DNA from: Candidatus Altarchaeales archaeon
GTDB lineage: Archaea; Altiarchaeota; Altiarchaeia; IMC4; SCGC-AAA252-I15
NCBI GenBank assembly: GCA_014727915.1
Contig: WJMO01000005.1
Coordinates: 248,001 to 312,000, forward strand
DNA length: 64,000 bases
Reading direction: 5' to 3'
Program-made: the position numbers and the translations under genes
Part shown: in pieces, positions 14,779 to 58,750 of the stretch
Numbering within the stretch: position 1 is the first letter of the stretch
Layout: every line of letters begins with the position of its first letter
Notes under the pieces: generated by a model
Database searches by the model: none
The model's input: the letters and a program-made list of their open reading frames with translations, nothing else
What the model was told of the DNA's origin: nothing

Positions 14779-16068
14779 TCACTCCCACCTCTTCTTCAGC
14801 TTCCGGTGGGTGAACTTCTTCTTACGGTAGTCTTCGACGATGTGTCCGTCGCCTTTCAGGATCCACTTGTGTATCACGAGGCCTTCCATCCCGACTGGTC
14901 CGCGGGCGTGTATCTTGTTTGTGCTGATTCCGATCTCCGCTCCCAGGCCGTACCTGTACCCGTCGCTGAACCTGGTAGACGCGTTCCACATCACAGACGA
15001 GCTGTCAACCGAGTCTATGAATTTCCTGGCTGTATACTCGTCCTCTGTGACGATGGCGTCCGTATGTGCCGACCCGTACCTGTTGATGTTCTCTATCGCT
15101 TCATCAACTCCATTTACCGTCCGAACGTTCACTACGAGGTCGTTGTATTCTGTGCTCCAGTCTATGTCGCAGGCTTTCTGAATGTCTCCGAGCACCTTGC
15201 AGGCCTTCTCATCGCCTTTGGCGGTCACGCCTGCCTTACGATACTCCTCCCATATCCTGGGTAGGAACTCTCCGACGATTCTTTCGTCCACTAGCAGGGT
15301 CTCCATAGCATTGCAGACTGCGGGATACTGGCATTTGGCATCGTAGGCGATCCTCAACGCCTTTTCCATGTCCGCCTCCCCGTCGACGTACACGTGGCAC
15401 ACACCGCTTGCATGGCCGAGGACTGGTATCCTCGTGTTCTCCTTTATGTACTTTACGAACTCGTTGCTTCCCCGGGGGACCAGAAGGCTTATGTACTCGT
15501 CCAGCTCCAGCATCTCCGTTACTTCCTCCCTGCTCTCCACCAGTTGTATCCAACCCTCCGGCATCCCAGACTCCTCTGTTGCCGCCTTCATCAGCCCGTA
15601 CAGCATCCTGTTGGTGTGCCGTGCCTCGCTCCCGCCTTTCATCATGACCGCGTTTCCGCTCTTCAGGCAGAGAGCGCCGACGTCCACCACAACGTTCGGC
15701 CTTGATTCGAATATGGCCCCTATGACCCCGATGGGAACCGTGATCTTGTATAGTTCAAGGTCTATGTCCAGTTCGATGGCGTATGTGGTCTCCCCCACGG
15801 GATCCTTCAGCTTCACCACGCTCTTCACACCCTCCACCATTGCTTCGACCTTCTCCTCGTTCAACTGCAGCCTCTTGTAGAGCGCCTCTCCGATCTCGTC
15901 CTTGGATTCCTCGCAGTCCCTGGCGTTTGCCTCCAGAATCTCCCCCTTACGGTCCCACAGGACCTTGGCCAAAGCCAACAGTGCCCTGTCCTTCTCGTCT
16001 GCTGACGTCTTGGCCAGTTCGAGGGATGCCCCCCTTGCCTGCCGCGCCTTTTCGATCGTGGTTGCCAT
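14779..16068 (-). CDS. proA: Gamma-glutamyl phosphate reductase
   Basis: Start at MATTIEKARQARG; PIGVIGAIFESRPNVVVDVGALCLKSGNAVMMKGGSEA, VPRGSNEFVKYIKENTRIPVLGHASGVCHVYVD, SVMWNASTRFSDGYRYGLGAEIGISTNKIHARGPVGMEGL. Confidence 0.95.
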   Translation of the reverse strand: MATTIEKARQARGASLELAKTSADEKDRALLALAKVLWDRKGEILEANARDCEESKDEIGEALYKRLQLNEEKVEAMVEGVKSVVKLKDPVGETTYAIELDIDLELYKITVPIGVIGAIFESRPNVVVDVGALCLKSGNAVMMKGGSEARHTNRMLYGLMKAATEESGMPEGWIQLVESREEVTEMLELDEYISLLVPRGSNEFVKYIKENTRIPVLGHASGVCHVYVDGEADMEKALRIAYDAKCQYPAVCNAMETLLVDERIVGEFLPRIWEEYRKAGVTAKGDEKACKVLGDIQKACDIDWSTEYNDLVVNVRTVNGVDEAIENINRYGSAHTDAIVTEDEYTARKFIDSVDSSSVMWNASTRFSDGYRYGLGAEIGISTNKIHARGPVGMEGLVIHKWILKGDGHIVEDYRKKKFTHRKLKKRWE

Positions 16069-50950: not shown

Positions 50951-51714
50951 CTTTTGTTGTTCCAGTCAACGGTCGAATACTTGTTCTCCGAGAGAGCTTC
51001 GGCCTTCATCCTCTCCTCCCCTGTCGGCCTGCCCTTCTTAAGATCCAGCTTCAACGACTTAGCGAAACCTTTCCGGAACGCCGTCGAAGCCTTATCAAAT
51101 GTGATCTCACGATTTAAAACGTGTTTCACGGAGGTCACCCGCTCCTTAACTGCCTTGACCGCCTTGTCCCTCATCTTCTCATCCGATACCCTCAGGAGTT
51201 TGAACATCCTCTCCGCATCCACGTCCAAGAGGACGGTCCCATGCTGTAGCACGCAGTTCATCCTGCGTGTCTGGGCGTTGCCGCTGATCTTCCTGCCTCC
51301 TGTGATTATGTCGTTCAAGGGGGCGAACTCAGCGTCTATGCCCAATTCTTTGAAACCTCCTATGAGGCCTGAGCATATCAGCCTGTAGGATTCGAGAACG
51401 TCCTTTGGCACCGTGTCCTCTGGGGATATGAAGCTGTATGTCAGCTCAGTGTCGTGGTATACTGCTCCCCCGCCGGTTATTCGCCTTACCACGTCAACGC
51501 CTTCCTCAAAACAACTGTCAAGATCCACTTCCTCCCGCAGGCTCTGGAAGTATCCTATCGAGACGGTGGCTGGCTCCCATCCGTAGAACCTTAGCGTGGG
51601 TGGGCTGTTGCCCTGGCTCACCTCTTCCAGCACGGCTTCGTCCAATCCCATGTTCCAGTATCCTGGGTTGTGTCCTGTCTCCAATAGCCTGCACTTCACT
51701 TCACAGCCTCGCAT
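50947..51714 (-). CDS. lplA: Lipoate-protein ligase A, catalytic (N-terminal) subunit
   Basis: 255 aa; NMGLDEAVLEEV, PTLRFYGWEPATVSIGYFQ, VVRRITGGGAVYHDTELTYSF, DIITGGRKISGNAQTRRMNCVLQHGTVLLD. Confidence 0.93.
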   Translation of the reverse strand: MRGCEVKCRLLETGHNPGYWNMGLDEAVLEEVSQGNSPPTLRFYGWEPATVSIGYFQSLREEVDLDSCFEEGVDVVRRITGGGAVYHDTELTYSFISPEDTVPKDVLESYRLICSGLIGGFKELGIDAEFAPLNDIITGGRKISGNAQTRRMNCVLQHGTVLLDVDAERMFKLLRVSDEKMRDKAVKAVKERVTSVKHVLNREITFDKASTAFRKGFAKSLKLDLKKGRPTGEERMKAEALSENKYSTVDWNNKR

Positions 51715-51962
51715 ATGACCTTCACTATCGATTCCGCGTCCACACCGTACAATTCCGCCCCTTCCAGAGCCTTCTTAACGACCTTCCTGACGTCCCCGGC
51801 CTTTATGCCCCTCAGTTGTTCGTCCAGCTCGTCCATCCTGGACTCGGGGTGCATGAAGAAGTCGCCTGTTACCTTGGCCTTTAGTATCCTGCCATTCTCG
51901 TGTCTGACATCTGCTTTCAATAGCTTGCCTCCCGGAACCTTCAAAATGGCCTTTCCCCTCAT
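51696..51962 (-). CDS. lplB: Lipoate-protein ligase accessory (C-terminal) subunit
   Basis: 88 aa; KVPGGKLLKADVRHENGRILKAKVTGDFFMHPESRMDELDEQLRGIKA; overlaps lplA. Confidence 0.85.
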   Translation of the reverse strand: MRGKAILKVPGGKLLKADVRHENGRILKAKVTGDFFMHPESRMDELDEQLRGIKAGDVRKVVKKALEGAELYGVDAESIVKVICEAVK

Positions 51963-51994
51963 CTTTTTAATATTAATGTGTCCTCTTATTTAAC

Positions 51995-52111
51995 ATGGCT
52001 GGACCAATTCTGGGCGTTATCGGCGGATTGGGCGTTGTTAAGGTCGCCGAGCGCGGTATGGAAGAGATCGGGAAGGGATTGGATGATGAAGGGGAAGAAG
52101 ACGAAGACTGA
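51995..52111 (+). CDS. Small hypothetical protein MAGPILGVIGGLGVVKVAERGMEEIGKGLDDEGEEDED
   Basis: Short ORF below the track cutoff; located at the divergent promoter of lplB; overlaps the next ORF. Confidence 0.4.
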   Translation: MAGPILGVIGGLGVVKVAERGMEEIGKGLDDEGEEDED

Positions 52112-52304
52112 GCCCGAAGTCATCCACTCTCCAAATTCTAAGGTCTGCGTCAGCCCCGGCTGCCCACTTTGCACCCCGTTGGGGCTTGCGCTGTTCCTCG
52201 TCGGATTCATGGTGGTGTTCTACACGGACTGGCCCTACCAGGTGTTTGGGTGGTTGACGCTAGCGTTGGCTTACCTGCAGGCGTGGGTCAAACCACGCTG
52301 GTAG
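52086..52304 (+). CDS. Small membrane protein with Cys motif
   Basis: MKGKKTKTEPEVIHSPNSKVCVSPGCPLCTPLGLALFLVGFMVVFYTDWPYQVFGWLTLALAYLQAWVKPRW; one or two TM helices and CxxxxxCxxC. Start ATG at 52083 or 52086. Confidence 0.5.
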   Translation: MKGKKTKTEPEVIHSPNSKVCVSPGCPLCTPLGLALFLVGFMVVFYTDWPYQVFGWLTLALAYLQAWVKPRW

Positions 52305-52305
52305 G

Positions 52306-52917
52306 CTATAGTCCTTCCAGCAGTCCCATGAGCTCTCCAAGAGACTCTATCCTGTGGTCTCCGTCCACTCCTATCCCAACGGTTGTGCACCCCGCAGCCC
52401 CTCCGGCTCCTATGTCTGCTTTGGTGTCACCCACCATGACGGAATCCGACTCTTTCACCCTAACAGCCTTGCAGGCGTGGTGTATCAGGTCAGGCTCCGG
52501 TTTGCCGACTGCCACGTCGTCTCCGCCGAAAACTCCGTCGAACCTCCCAGTCAGGCCTACGGTCTCGAGGGTGAGGTGCATGAGCTCGCGGGGTGTGTTG
52601 GTCACGATGACCTTGAGCTTATTCTTCCTTGATAGGTATTCCAGGACCTCGTCCGTTTCGGGGAACAATGTCACGCTACCTATGTTGTTTGGGAAGAACT
52701 CATCGTATAGTTCCACCAGCTCGCCGGGTGATAGGTTGGGGAAGAACCTACTCACATCCTCCTCCGTCGACTGTCCCAGTATGTCCTGGCAGAACGTCTC
52801 ATAGCCGACTTTGTCCCCACCCGTGTATTCTAGGACGTCGTTGAAGGTCTTATGCCATGCTGGGATGGAGTCGACGAGCGTACCGTCCATGTCGAACAGG
52901 ACTGCTTCGTAGGTCAT
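52306..52917 (-). CDS. HAD-superfamily hydrolase (phosphoglycolate phosphatase-like)
   Basis: Start at MTYEAVLFDMDGTLVDS; IVTNTPRELM; GKPEPDLIHHACKAV; DSVMVGDTKADIGAGGAAGCTTVGIGVDGD. Confidence 0.9.
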   Translation of the reverse strand: MTYEAVLFDMDGTLVDSIPAWHKTFNDVLEYTGGDKVGYETFCQDILGQSTEEDVSRFFPNLSPGELVELYDEFFPNNIGSVTLFPETDEVLEYLSRKNKLKVIVTNTPRELMHLTLETVGLTGRFDGVFGGDDVAVGKPEPDLIHHACKAVRVKESDSVMVGDTKADIGAGGAAGCTTVGIGVDGDHRIESLGELMGLLEGL

Positions 52918-52954: not shown

Positions 52955-54304
52955 CTAGTATCCTGCGTCGTGCTTGGCCCACCGCTCCTTCTCGGTGAGT
53001 ATCCTGCTGATCTCCTGGAATACCGGGGGTATGGGCTTCCTGCCCGACTCAACAGCGTTCCTGTTGACTGGCGCCCTCACGATGAGGGCTCCGTCCACGC
53101 CGTAGTCGTTAACTCCTATCCCCGTGGTCTTGCCCACGTTGTAGTCGTTCAACGTGTGTATGTCCGCTCTGGCAAAGCGCCCGGTCGTCAGCGCATGGTC
53201 TCCCTCCATGTCAGCGGTGAAGACTTCGAAGTCCAAATCCATCAGCGGCCGGTATGCCCTGTAGTGGTTGAAGCCTGCGACATCGTCTGTGCGGATGGTG
53301 GTCACCTCCCCTCCCCTCATGACGGTCAGGCTGGCTCCTGGTATGAGCATCCTCGTGTAGGCCATCATCCTCCCGTCGTCCGCCTGCTCGTATACGACAT
53401 CCCTACTATGGTCTATTCTGCTCCTCTTCATCCTCTGAGCCCTATCAAACTCATCCTGTGCCAACGCCGATGACTGGTGGAACAGTGCGGTCAGGCTTGT
53501 CGGCTTTGTCTCGGTTGACTCCACGTCGGGGATGTACCTCCACATTGGTATGTACACCCCTCCCGGGGTATGATTGCGTTGGATAGTCCCAGCTTCCACA
53601 TCTAGTCTGGGAAATTGTATGTCCATGACAGAGCCTCCGCTCAGTCCCCTCACCAGAAGGCGGGTCCTATCCATGTCCTCCCTTCCCCGGTCTCCTCCGA
53701 TCTTTGTTATGTCGACTTTGCCCTCCCTTCCAGCTCCCCTGCTGAACATGTCCAACAGGCTGCCTTGGAAGCCGAGGGCTTGCAGCGATGGATCGTGTCC
53801 CTCTTCGCCGTCTACCACCACCGCCATAGGCACGCCGTCGCAGTGGCAGCTTATCGCATACTCGTCTCCGCCCCCGAGGGAACATATAACAACATCGCTT
53901 TTCCCGGACCTCAGCGGGTACTGGTCTTTGGGAAGCCTTCCCGCCAGGGCGTCAAAGTACCTCCTGGCGCCTCCAACCTCCTCTAACGTGTTCAGGAAAA
54001 GCCTCATGGCAGTCGGATGCCGGTCCATGGCGTGCGCGAACCCGTCCAGTTGTAGCTCTGGCATGCTCTCAACCAAGTCTCTGAGCAAGTGGGTCCTCTC
54101 CCCCCAGACCCCCGGGTGCCCGCTCCTGGAGTCGACCAGGTCGCGGAGGCTATCGCGTGTTGCGTGGAAATGAGCGTTAGGCCTGCTGATCAGACGTGTT
54201 TTCTCGGCGGCATCCTGTCTTGCAACATCTGCTGGCACCTGGCCTTGCTCTTCCTTCCCCCCCTGGCTTTGACCACCCTTTGGTTTCTCTTCCTCTTTTG
54301 CCAT
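52955..54304 (-). CDS. Putative divergent SpoIIE/RsbU-type (PP2C-like) phosphatase
   Basis: 449 aa; LGGGDEYAISCHCDGVPMAVVVDGEEGHDPSLQALGFQGSLLDMF resembles vGGDfYD...vviaDvsGHGv.AAllma; GGSVMDIQFPRLDVEAGTIQRNHTPGGVYIP resembles FvTalya.lD..tg.l...nAGHpPp; later LIPGASLTVMRGGEV resembles l.pGD.LvlyTDGvtE with the Asp lost. Manual motif comparison only. Confidence 0.45.
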   Translation of the reverse strand: MAKEEEKPKGGQSQGGKEEQGQVPADVARQDAAEKTRLISRPNAHFHATRDSLRDLVDSRSGHPGVWGERTHLLRDLVESMPELQLDGFAHAMDRHPTAMRLFLNTLEEVGGARRYFDALAGRLPKDQYPLRSGKSDVVICSLGGGDEYAISCHCDGVPMAVVVDGEEGHDPSLQALGFQGSLLDMFSRGAGREGKVDITKIGGDRGREDMDRTRLLVRGLSGGSVMDIQFPRLDVEAGTIQRNHTPGGVYIPMWRYIPDVESTETKPTSLTALFHQSSALAQDEFDRAQRMKRSRIDHSRDVVYEQADDGRMMAYTRMLIPGASLTVMRGGEVTTIRTDDVAGFNHYRAYRPLMDLDFEVFTADMEGDHALTTGRFARADIHTLNDYNVGKTTGIGVNDYGVDGALIVRAPVNRNAVESGRKPIPPVFQEISRILTEKERWAKHDAGY

Positions 54305-54338: not shown

Positions 54339-57300
54339 CTAATTCGCCTGTTTGCCTTCCCGGGATTTCTCCCTCTTCTCCTCGATCCTCTGCCTCAAGT
54401 ACTCGTAGGCTTTTTTGTGGTCCCAGATGTTCTGGGGAGTCTCCTGGTTTTGGCTCTCAGAGTGCGAGATAATCTCACGCGCCCACCCCCCGCATTCTCT
54501 GCTGTCCAACAAACCCATCTCCTCTCTCCTCTGGAGCAGCCTTCGAGGCGGGAGGGATATGGTCACACTACCCCTGTCTGGGGGGACTCCGGCCTCATCG
54601 TCCAGGATCGCCTCAAGGCCTATCTGCAATGCTATCCCCTCGAACTCTTCGGAGAGCGCTCCGCAGGTGTAGTATGGCTTGTCCGCTCGCCTGCAGCTCC
54701 TCCTGCTCGATAGCAGGGCCTCCGCGAGGGTTGGCGCATACTCTGTCTTCTCCCCCGCGCTCCTGGGGGTTTCTGTGAATGACTCTCCCAGGTCGTTAGA
54801 CCCGTATGATGCTATGTCATAGTACGGGTGCAGTGATGCCATCTTACTCAATCCCATCCTGGATTCATATTGCAATATGAAGAGGACCTGCCTGTCAGGT
54901 GATTTGCCCACCTGTTCGAGCCTGCGCATGATTCTATCGAATGATTCCCTGCAGGCCTGCACGTCGCTGATGTGCTGGGCGTTTGGCAGTATGACCCCCG
55001 TCTGCTGTCGTGCGGTCGCGGCAGACCTTATTATGGCTCCCATGTTGGCGTCGAGCAGCCTGCGCCTACGAGGCTCTGCTATGAACCTAAGGCTGGTCAT
55101 ACCCCCTCTAAGCGCGTCTGGCCCGTATGCCTCCTGCAGTATCGGGAGGTATTTGTCTTCTGTGATGTCGAAGGTCCTCTTTAGGCTTGGGCATTCCCTG
55201 TATTCCGGCGGTGCGTGGTCGTAGAGGTAGTCGTCCACCCTCGAATACCTCCTCGTCAGGTACTCCTCCAGAACCCTGAACGAGTCCGGTTCAAAAACCT
55301 CTATGTGCGTGGGGTGGTCGGGGTTTGCATATGCGATGAACCTCCCTCGGATCCTGCTCTCATCATCGTCGTTGCCTGCAAAGACCAGCAGTTCGTCGCC
55401 CTGATGCCTTAGTGTCAGCTCCTCTCTCAAGTCTGTCCTGACCCTCCATCTCCTGGCTCCTCCGATCTCATCAAGCGGTTCAACCGACTCTACGTGGGAG
55501 CCGGCGTTTATCAGGTCGAACCTGTCGAAGCTGTTATTGGCCTGTTGGATGTTGGCGTAATTGTTATCTCCGAGGGTGAACGCTGGAAGTCTGCTGTTAA
55601 GCTTGACTCTGAGGGGTTGGAGGTCCGTGCTCGTGGCTATCTCGGTCCTGAATAGGTAAAGCCCCTCAGCCCCGTATCTTGTTGCGCGGGCAAGCTGGCT
55701 TTCGTTGAACCCGTTCAAAGTGGCTCCCCCAACTATCCTGAAACCGTCCGATGTGACCATGTTCCTTATCTCCCCGACTTCAGGCTCTATCGATACCTTC
55801 TGGGGTAATACGATCGCGTAACCCCTTTCCGGGCCTTGCAGTTCACAGCCGAAGAACTCACCTATCCTCCTCCCTGGACTCTCTATCATAACAGAGTTCC
55901 GGTCGTCTATGGGGTCTGCGATTAGCACGGGAGTTCCGTCCTCTATCCTATCCAGTTGTTCGGGGTCCACTCCCATGATTATGGCTTGACGCGCGGCTCC
56001 CGCGGCGATAGCTCCATGGCAGTTGCTCTTGCCATGTAATGAGCCCCAGCCTTCGAATCCCATATGCCTCAGCTCGATCACCTGGTCGGGCGTCGGGTCC
56101 CTCGGGAGGATGGCAACCCATCCCTCGTGCAGGCGTGTTAGTGTCTCCTGCGTCTGCCTTCTCATCTGGAGCAGGTCTCCGGCTCTGAGGGCGGTTTCCT
56201 TGAGGCCTCCCTCCATTATGACCTCGTTGCCGTCTATCCGTTCTCCTTCCTTGTCGGCCCAGATCACGCCCAGGAGCTCTCCTACCTTGCCTGGTTCCTC
56301 TGTTGGCGCGTGTATGGTGGCCCATGCGCAGTTTGGGTTCTCGCAGAAGCCGCCTCGCGTGTCCGGGTTGTGGAATGTGTCTTCGACTATCATTACCTCC
56401 TGCCTTCCGCTTTCCATAGCCCTTCTCGCGATGACCGCAGTGCCGTCTTCTGGCTTGTCCAATGGTATCCTAGCATCTCCCGGGACTGTTTGGAAACCTC
56501 CTTTCTTCCACTCGTACCTTGAGACCAGCTCCCTGGAACTGGGTTCCAGCAGGTATACCCCCGCCTGTCTGAAAACGGGTTCCTGGCCCTTTGGTTTGAT
56601 TGCTCTGCGGAGCACGTATGCCAGGATGTGAGTCTCTGAGAATCCGTCTCTGGTGGGCAGCAAAAGAGTCCTCATGTCAGCTTCTGCGTTGGCCCTCTGG
56701 GCGTCGTCCATCTCCTTGGGTTTTCCCTGGTCGTCCAACATGAACTGGCATCTTATGGCCAGCTCCAGGTTGGGGTGGGTTTCCTCCCCTACTGTTAGTG
56801 GCAGTCCTAGGGCGTCAACGATGCCCTGTGTTACCGGCTGGGCTAGCCTGGTGGCCAACGGCATCCTCAACTGTCCCAGGTAGTCTGCTTCACCCTTCCT
56901 CATGGCCTTGAACTCCTTTTCGTCCGTCAGTCCCAGGGCTGCAATCTCAGCGTCGGTCGCGTGCTTTCTACCGGTGGTTATGATGTCCATGAGAGCGTCC
57001 AAACGCCTTATCTGCAGCGGCACCTTGTCTTCACTCACCAGCCCATAGTCTATCACCTTCCCCCTCTCCTGTAGGGGGTCTCTCTTGACTGGCCCGTAGA
57101 CTACCATGCCCGATTCTCCTCCGCTGCCTACCAGCACGACGTTGCCCTGTTCCCTGTGCCTCCTGATCAGGCCCAGTTCGACCAGCTCCTCCGAGAAGCT
57201 GGTATCCTGGAATCTTAGCTCTCCTCCTGATTGTCCTGAAGCTTGCGCCAGCATCTTACCGTACTCTTCAGGGTTATCCTCTCTTTTTTTGATGTAGTCT

Positions 57301-57866
57301 TTCACACGCTGCTGGAAGTTGTCATGGTATGCTACGGTCAGCATGTCTGTCATCTGGCGCACGACCTGCTCGTCGGGGCCAATGGCTATCATATCTATCT
57401 GTCTCGGCTGGTTGTTGTGCGCTTCCGGGCCTTGCACTCCGAGGTCTCTCAGCTGGTCTGACCTGCACATCTCCTGCCATCCGAGGCTTCCGGGGGCGTT
57501 TCCTTCACCGTCTTTTCCCACTGGTATGAACAGCTTGCAGTCTATGTCATCCGGGTTGCCTCCTGTCTTCTTGCACCGTGGGTTATGCTCTCTGATGATC
57601 CTGAAGGTCGTGGTCGCAGGCCTGACGTGCAGCTCCTGCAGTGCCGGGAAAGTCATCTCAACCAGCGTGAGACCCTGGGTTTCAGCCCTTCTCCGTAGGT
57701 CTTCCGTGGTTATCACACCTACCGATCTTGTACTGGCGACTTCTATGGGAGTTGCGCCGGTTATCTGCGGGCCCTGCTCCTCAGGCTTCCTTGGCTGCGG
57801 GGGTTCCTGGGCCTGCGGGGGTTTCACCTCCTTTTGAGGGCCTTTCGGCTGGTCGTCAGATGGCAT
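54339..57866 (-). CDS. HPr-GAF-Enzyme I-like (PEP-utilising) multidomain protein
   Basis: 1175 aa. HPr-like aa ~66-185 (QELHVRPATTTFRII, GSLGWQEM, IDMIAIGPDEQVVRQMTDML); GAF-like aa ~410-540; phosphohistidine swivel ILPRDPTPDQVIELRHMGFEGWGSLHGKSNCHGAIAAGAARQAIIMGV; PEP barrel GAEGLYLFRTEI, GGMTSLRF, LQYESRMGLSKMA, YGSNDLGES, YYTCGALSEE. Confidence 0.75.
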   Translation of the reverse strand: MPSDDQPKGPQKEVKPPQAQEPPQPRKPEEQGPQITGATPIEVASTRSVGVITTEDLRRRAETQGLTLVEMTFPALQELHVRPATTTFRIIREHNPRCKKTGGNPDDIDCKLFIPVGKDGEGNAPGSLGWQEMCRSDQLRDLGVQGPEAHNNQPRQIDMIAIGPDEQVVRQMTDMLTVAYHDNFQQRVKDYIKKREDNPEEYGKMLAQASGQSGGELRFQDTSFSEELVELGLIRRHREQGNVVLVGSGGESGMVVYGPVKRDPLQERGKVIDYGLVSEDKVPLQIRRLDALMDIITTGRKHATDAEIAALGLTDEKEFKAMRKGEADYLGQLRMPLATRLAQPVTQGIVDALGLPLTVGEETHPNLELAIRCQFMLDDQGKPKEMDDAQRANAEADMRTLLLPTRDGFSETHILAYVLRRAIKPKGQEPVFRQAGVYLLEPSSRELVSRYEWKKGGFQTVPGDARIPLDKPEDGTAVIARRAMESGRQEVMIVEDTFHNPDTRGGFCENPNCAWATIHAPTEEPGKVGELLGVIWADKEGERIDGNEVIMEGGLKETALRAGDLLQMRRQTQETLTRLHEGWVAILPRDPTPDQVIELRHMGFEGWGSLHGKSNCHGAIAAGAARQAIIMGVDPEQLDRIEDGTPVLIADPIDDRNSVMIESPGRRIGEFFGCELQGPERGYAIVLPQKVSIEPEVGEIRNMVTSDGFRIVGGATLNGFNESQLARATRYGAEGLYLFRTEIATSTDLQPLRVKLNSRLPAFTLGDNNYANIQQANNSFDRFDLINAGSHVESVEPLDEIGGARRWRVRTDLREELTLRHQGDELLVFAGNDDDESRIRGRFIAYANPDHPTHIEVFEPDSFRVLEEYLTRRYSRVDDYLYDHAPPEYRECPSLKRTFDITEDKYLPILQEAYGPDALRGGMTSLRFIAEPRRRRLLDANMGAIIRSAATARQQTGVILPNAQHISDVQACRESFDRIMRRLEQVGKSPDRQVLFILQYESRMGLSKMASLHPYYDIASYGSNDLGESFTETPRSAGEKTEYAPTLAEALLSSRRSCRRADKPYYTCGALSEEFEGIALQIGLEAILDDEAGVPPDRGSVTISLPPRRLLQRREEMGLLDSRECGGWAREIISHSESQNQETPQNIWDHKKAYEYLRQRIEEKREKSREGKQAN

Positions 57867-57910: not shown

Positions 57911-58750
57911 TTATTTGGCTGTTTCAGCTGCTTGGTAGCTGGTTCTAGCCAAGGGTTCGGATGTCACTTTTTCAAACCCCTTTTCAAACGCTTTTTCCTT
58001 GAATCGCTGGAATACCCTGGGTTCTACATATTCGACAACTTGCGTCTGCTTCCTTGTGGGTTGGAGGTACTGGCCAATCACGAGGAAGTCACAGCCCACT
58101 GCCCTCAGATCGTCCATCGCCTGAACGATCTCTCCCTCTTTCTCTCCTAATCCCAGCATTATGGACGACTTCGTCTTCAGGGAAGGGTTGAGCTTCTTCA
58201 CCTCCAATAGCGTCTGGAGGCTCCCCTGGTATGATGCCCTACTGTCTCTGAGATGTTGGAGCCTCTCCACGACTTCGATGTTGTGTGCGACCACGTCCGG
58301 TCCGGCGTTGACCACAGCTTCCAGTTCATCGCCTGTGTAGTCAGGTATAAGGACTTCTACCTTGGCTCCAACGCCCTTCAACGCCCTTATGCACTCTGCA
58401 TACCTTCCTGATCCCTTGTCCTTGAGGTCGTCCCTGTCAACGGATGTCAGCACTACATAAGCCAGATTCAGCTCTCGCACCGCTTCCGCGAGGTTGGCCG
58501 GCTCTTCGATGTCCAATTCATCACCGGCGTCCGAGCTTTTGACCGCGCAGAAACTGCAGTTCCTCGTGCAAGTTTCCCCCAGTATCATGAAGGTGGCTGT
58601 GCCGCAACCCCAGCATTCCCCCATGTTCGGGCAGCGAGCCTCCTCGCAGACCGTGTTGAGATTGTGCTTTCTCAGCACGTCTTTGACGCTTGCATAGCGT
58701 CCATGCCCCCCTATGGGGGCCTTCAGCCAATGGGGCTTCCCGGCTTCCAT
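57911..58750 (-). CDS. lipA: Lipoyl synthase
   Basis: 279 aa; CEEARCPNMGECWGCGTATFMILGETCTRNCSFCAV (auxiliary cluster plus radical SAM CxxxCxxC); SSIMLGLGEKEGEI; QYLQPTRKQTQVVEYV. Confidence 0.96.
   Translation of the reverse strand: MEAGKPHWLKAPIGGHGRYASVKDVLRKHNLNTVCEEARCPNMGECWGCGTATFMILGETCTRNCSFCAVKSSDAGDELDIEEPANLAEAVRELNLAYVVLTSVDRDDLKDKGSGRYAECIRALKGVGAKVEVLIPDYTGDELEAVVNAGPDVVAHNIEVVERLQHLRDSRASYQGSLQTLLEVKKLNPSLKTKSSIMLGLGEKEGEIVQAMDDLRAVGCDFLVIGQYLQPTRKQTQVVEYVEPRVFQRFKEKAFEKGFEKVTSEPLARTSYQAAETAK

Follow-up and report, generated by a model that had tools for sequence, protein, structure and literature searches.

The locus examined here raises the question of what a long reading frame with features of a PTS phosphorelay might be doing within a glycine-cleavage and lipoate gene cluster of an archaeon. 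Such phosphorelays are regarded as a bacterial invention that has reached few archaea, the best-known archaeal case serving sugar uptake (PMC2405797). The window, i.e. the whole stretch of 64,000 nucleotides that was analysed, is part of a 511-kb contig in a 1.81-Mb genome with an estimated completeness of 90.6%. The 16S and 23S genes are matched best by archaeal Rfam models, with SSU_rRNA_archaea matching the 16S gene over its full length (1426 bits), so the genome is archaeal; an archaeal-type (d)CMP kinase is also encoded in the window. The reading frame of interest, at 54339..57866 on the minus strand, is open for 1175 codons, compared with a longest open run of 339 codons when the bases of this stretch were shuffled 200 times, and is a real coding sequence. 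The encoded protein of 1175 amino acids, referred to here as P0001, was annotated as a probable HPr-like/Enzyme I (EI) fusion on the basis of the open frame and matches to PF02896 and TIGR01417. An earlier, sequence-only reading had proposed a fusion of HPr, GAF and EI domains constituting a self-contained phosphorelay.

The Enzyme I module

The EI part of this proposal was examined by profile and structural comparison. Hmmscan returned a single Pfam match in P0001, to PF02896 (E=1.7e-5, above the curated cut-off), but reported nothing for the HPr (PF00381), GAF or swivel (PF00391) models. The NCBIfam model TIGR01417 scored 24.3 bits against a cut-off of 341.7, and since this cut-off was missed P0001 is filed as a derived EI-like module as opposed to an orthologue. 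When the bare P0001 sequence was compared by hhalign with a profile made from EIs of bacterial loci, an alignment was obtained across both the swivel and the barrel (probability 98%, E=1.2e-14), a match well outside what chance would give. The phosphohistidine swivel domain (aa ~581–665; 55872..56126, minus strand) is covered by this alignment, H617 being invariant among the aligned EIs, while the PEP-binding barrel (aa ~700–1110; 54537..55769, minus strand) is identified by PF02896, hhalign, AlphaFold and Foldseek.

None of the nine EI active-site residues has been lost, these being H617 in the swivel domain and R740, R897, R927, E1001, N1024, D1025, R1035 and C1068 in the barrel. Of these, R897 and R1035 were absent from the sequence-only reading; the positions that it did list, including H80 in the N-terminal region, are all as it had stated. 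The equivalent residues in E. coli EI are, in the same order, H189, R296, R332, R358, E431, N454, D455, R465 and C502, and the same nine letters are present in 22 of the 22 bacterial EI/PtsP proteins examined. Identity to the EIs is otherwise only ∼20–25%, and the retention of nine catalytic residues at this level suggests selection on catalysis. The P0001 branch, on the other hand, is extremely divergent at ∼7 changes per site, a warning that the activity may have changed. The barrel is also interrupted by an insertion of ∼100 residues (aa ~766–864; 55275..55571, minus strand) that is missing from 19 aligned bacterial EIs and is predicted to consist mostly of beta strands. In an AlphaFold model prepared with 19 EIs in the alignment the barrel is confident, with pLDDT values mostly of 85–97 beyond aa 930, and a Foldseek search with this model gave EI as the top matches, the best PDB match being phosphorylated Enzyme I (2hwg). 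Since the input alignment itself leans toward EI, the model is to be taken as support and not as independent evidence. There is strong support for assigning the C-terminal part of P0001 as an EI module whose active site is intact.

The N-terminal and middle regions

The segment at aa 66–185 (57312..57671, minus strand), with H80 as candidate phospho-acceptor, had been read as an HPr domain. A comparison was made with 16 HPr domains, drawn from beside EIs, from fusions and from the same genome, against which aa 60–190 proved to be the top-scoring part of P0001. The score was equalled by one of 200 shuffles with hhalign and by one of 1000 with semi-global alignment, although the Pfam HPr model remained below threshold. 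When shuffling spared the motif LQELHVRPATT, the HPr score was reached by 19 of 1000 sequences, indicating that sequence outside the motif adds a little to the match. Folding of the region alone by AlphaFold, from the single sequence and with no alignment, gave no usable model (pLDDT 35). In the AlphaFold model prepared with 19 EIs, which is of low confidence here, the strand–helix order is compatible with HPr. The segment is best described as a probable HPr-like domain.

The region between the HPr-like domain and the swivel (aa 186–580; 56127..57311, minus strand) is without a Pfam or PDB match. A GAF-like segment had been proposed here at aa ~410–540, but is not supported: Pfam gave no GAF match in P0001, and 21 of 100 shuffles scored equally well against PtsP GAF domains, whereas genuine PtsP GAFs withheld from the profile scored with E below 1e-26. 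The EI HPr-docking helical domain (PF05524), for which the earlier reading had seen no room between GAF and swivel (aa ~541–583), was likewise undetectable in aa 200–440 of P0001 (12 of 100 shuffles), using a test that did locate the domain in a second EI from the same genome (0 of 100 shuffles). The reported absence thus holds as far as detection goes, but a helical domain may be hidden within aa 186–580.

Genomic context

The minus-strand gene order around P0001 is gcvT, gcvH, gcvPA, gcvPB, lipA, P0001, a 449-aa orphan, a HAD phosphatase gene, lplB, lplA and lpd. The upstream flank is formed by the lipoyl synthase gene lipA (57911..58750, minus strand; NCBIfam), and the downstream flank by the gene for the lipoate-protein ligase small subunit LplB (51696..51962, minus strand), which scored 64.3 bits with the NCBIfam LplB model against a cut-off of 65. 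The orphan gene (52955..54304, minus strand) is directly downstream of P0001, with 34 bp separating the frames, and the two are likely to be co-transcribed. The HAD-family protein (52306..52917, minus strand; NCBIfam, with the start set by inspection) is phosphoglycolate-phosphatase-like. Searches of the 449-aa orphan with Pfam, PHROGs, PADLOC and the PDB gave no match of note. The sequence LGGGDEYAIS is present in this protein, and a SpoIIE-like phosphatase, suspected by eye, was unsupported by Pfam or the PDB and was discarded. A possible small Cys-containing membrane protein (CVSPGCPLC) is encoded on the plus strand at 51978-52304, between the HAD gene and lplB.

In a relative from the same family (G005), lplB starts 42 bases after lipA and is followed by lplA and lpd with no insert. 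Given this uninterrupted order, an older glycine-cleavage/lipoate cluster most likely received the P0001, orphan and HAD genes as an insertion, the alternative being that G005 has lost all three. In a further relative (G002) the gene following lipA is unrelated. An unrelated 209-aa gene lies on the opposite strand between gcvPB and lipA in G002 (L069:2769-3398, plus strand), indicating that the cluster has been broken by other insertions too. The codon use of the insert (GC3 and Arg codons) equals that of its neighbours, and recent foreign acquisition as judged by composition was rejected on these grounds. A viral origin and a link to defence systems were similarly rejected, there being no PHROGs or PADLOC match.

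Relatives of the whole protein were found neither in 99 other archaeal genomes nor in IMG/VR, phages or plasmids, nor by a GTDB pattern scan that is sensitive to close relatives only; a second GTDB scan, conducted with an EI alignment, recovered ordinary bacterial EI/PtsP loci only.

Other phosphorelay components

Next, the remainder of the genome was surveyed for phosphorelay proteins. A stand-alone HPr-like protein of 158 aa (HPr158), with the motif EGLHIRPAS and a score at the Pfam cut-off, is encoded between the genes for 3-dehydroquinate synthase II and RtcB (L016:6808-7284; G000:C12 ~14807-15283). A second EI, of 754 aa, is encoded between acetolactate synthase and hisF (L017:4149-6413; G000:C12 ~140149-142412); it too is very divergent, has the catalytic residues, and carries a Pro-rich N-terminus resembling that of P0001, and a search of other archaeal genomes turned up no close relative of it. 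Both genes are distant from P0001 and do not adjoin each other. Given these two additional proteins, the proposal that P0001 is a self-contained phosphorelay is not established. The accompanying statement that PTS proteins are sparse in archaea agrees with the finding that none of 28 class relatives gave an HPr match, but in some other archaea (L025-L028) an HPr reading frame does lie beside EI.

The transporter search covered three families, namely the EIIA Ntr/fructose type (PF00359), the EIIA mannose type and one EIIC family. Both EIIA types are absent from the genome, at its completeness of 90.6%, and EIIC gave below-cut-off matches only, none of them confident. A 676-aa open frame (L075; G000:C11:467-856) showed a weak EIIC-like match of 16.4 bits, under the cut-off, and is probably an unrelated membrane protein.

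Proposed function and alternatives

To judge from its sequence features, P0001 is on balance probably a highly derived PEP:protein phosphotransferase that functions in a regulatory phosphorelay and not in sugar transport. PEP would phosphorylate H617, the phosphoryl group would then be transferred to H80 of the fused HPr-like domain and/or to H49 of HPr158, and from either of these it would move onward to a further target, for which the co-encoded 449-aa protein might be a candidate. Given HPr158 and the 754-aa EI, phosphotransfer could just as well occur in trans as in cis. By analogy with PTS-Ntr in bacteria, regulation is the most likely role of the relay, as opposed to sugar uptake, given the absence of two EIIA families and of any confident EIIC match. 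The place of the gene in the cluster suggests that P0001 may sense or control the glycine-cleavage/lipoate pathway. A more ambitious scheme, in which a transport-free archaeal PEP relay with two divergent EIs, two HPr modules and an acceptor replacing EIIA would control glycine cleavage and lipoylation, can be offered only tentatively and is rather unlikely.

Several other explanations were weighed against the phosphotransferase reading. The N-terminal region could feasibly not be HPr at all, in which case the EI module would autophosphorylate and work in trans with HPr158, LHVRPA being a coincidence within a sensor region. The silence of the Pfam HPr model, the weak residual match once the motif is discounted and the presence of a stand-alone HPr with its motif intact are all consistent with this, but the motif follows a beta-strand stretch and is succeeded by HPr-like spacing, the full-shuffle score was reached so rarely, and HPr–EI fusions are known from bacteria (PMC2405797), such that this explanation appears doubtful. 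It is somewhat less probable again that P0001 is a regulator, either binding PEP or no longer taking part in a relay, whose EI-derived module has been retained as a sensor or scaffold next to the glycine-cleavage system; extreme divergence, the barrel insertion and the failure to find a docking domain would fit such a role, whereas the retention of every catalytic residue speaks against it.

The tight order of P0001, the 449-aa gene and the HAD gene raises the prospect that P0001 phosphorylates, with no intermediate carrier, a metabolic protein encoded in the operon (the 449-aa partner, for instance) and that the HAD phosphatase reverses this. This is improbable, however, given that the 449-aa protein has no recognised domain and that HAD-family proteins for the most part have small phosphometabolites as substrates. 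The swivel and barrel folds are common to PEP synthase (PpsA) and pyruvate phosphate dikinase (PPDK) as well, so kinship with these enzymes was also considered, and Foldseek does indeed find both. Against this, the ATP-grasp domain (PF01326) is absent from P0001, ordinary PpsA and PPDK genes are already present in the genome, and the same P0001 segment gave E=1.6e-15 with the EI profile versus 9e-4 with an archaeal PEP-synthase/PPDK profile, favouring EI by ∼12 orders of magnitude; kinship of this kind is thus very improbable.

Comparison with known systems

The phosphotransferase reading places P0001 among several known types of protein. Bacterial PTS Enzyme I (ptsI; TIGR01417), its best profile and fold match, shares the swivel, the barrel and the nine active-site residues, but differs in that P0001 has low identity, the barrel insertion, no detectable helical domain and an extra 580 residues at the N-terminus. 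Several of the top database matches are to EI-Ntr (PtsP, GAF-EI), which likewise has a long region ahead of EI, and the lack of EIIC above cut-off in the host genome is a further likeness; conversely, in P0001 a GAF domain is undetectable and an HPr-like domain is fused, and EIIA-Ntr is absent from the genome. Bacterial PTS-Ntr is a transport-free relay; in Sinorhizobium and Caulobacter the autophosphorylation of PtsP is inhibited by glutamine, which works through the PtsP GAF domain (PMC4848567). It may serve, by analogy, as a model of what a transport-free relay is capable of; there is no evidence that P0001 senses glutamine.

P0001 also resembles the multiphosphoryl-transfer proteins (HPr–EI fusions, FruB/FPr and DhaM-type; PMC2405797), in which an HPr-like domain is N-terminal to EI in one chain, and it is best read as a highly derived variant of these, despite having no IIA that could be found, ∼400 residues between HPr and EI, an archaeal host and a glycine-cleavage setting. 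The combination had been thought undescribed, and the literature search found no paper describing P0001, but fusion of HPr to EI is in itself familiar. The new features are its extreme divergence, its occurrence in an archaeal lineage, the insertion in the barrel, the second EI and HPr that accompany it, and its position among glycine-cleavage genes. The genome would encode an archaeal relay with two EI-like proteins and HPr, no sugar transporter having been found in the families searched, which standard domain models barely detect in the case of P0001; if true, this would exemplify PEP-based signalling in an organism that is not a bacterium. A PTS phosphorelay in an archaeon is shared with L025-L028 and with Haloarcula marismortui, in which EI and HPr belong to a fructose PTS (PMC2405797). 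The EIs of L025-L028, however, are ordinary proteins of 555–593 aa with a separate HPr frame at the same locus, whereas that of P0001 is very divergent and fused.
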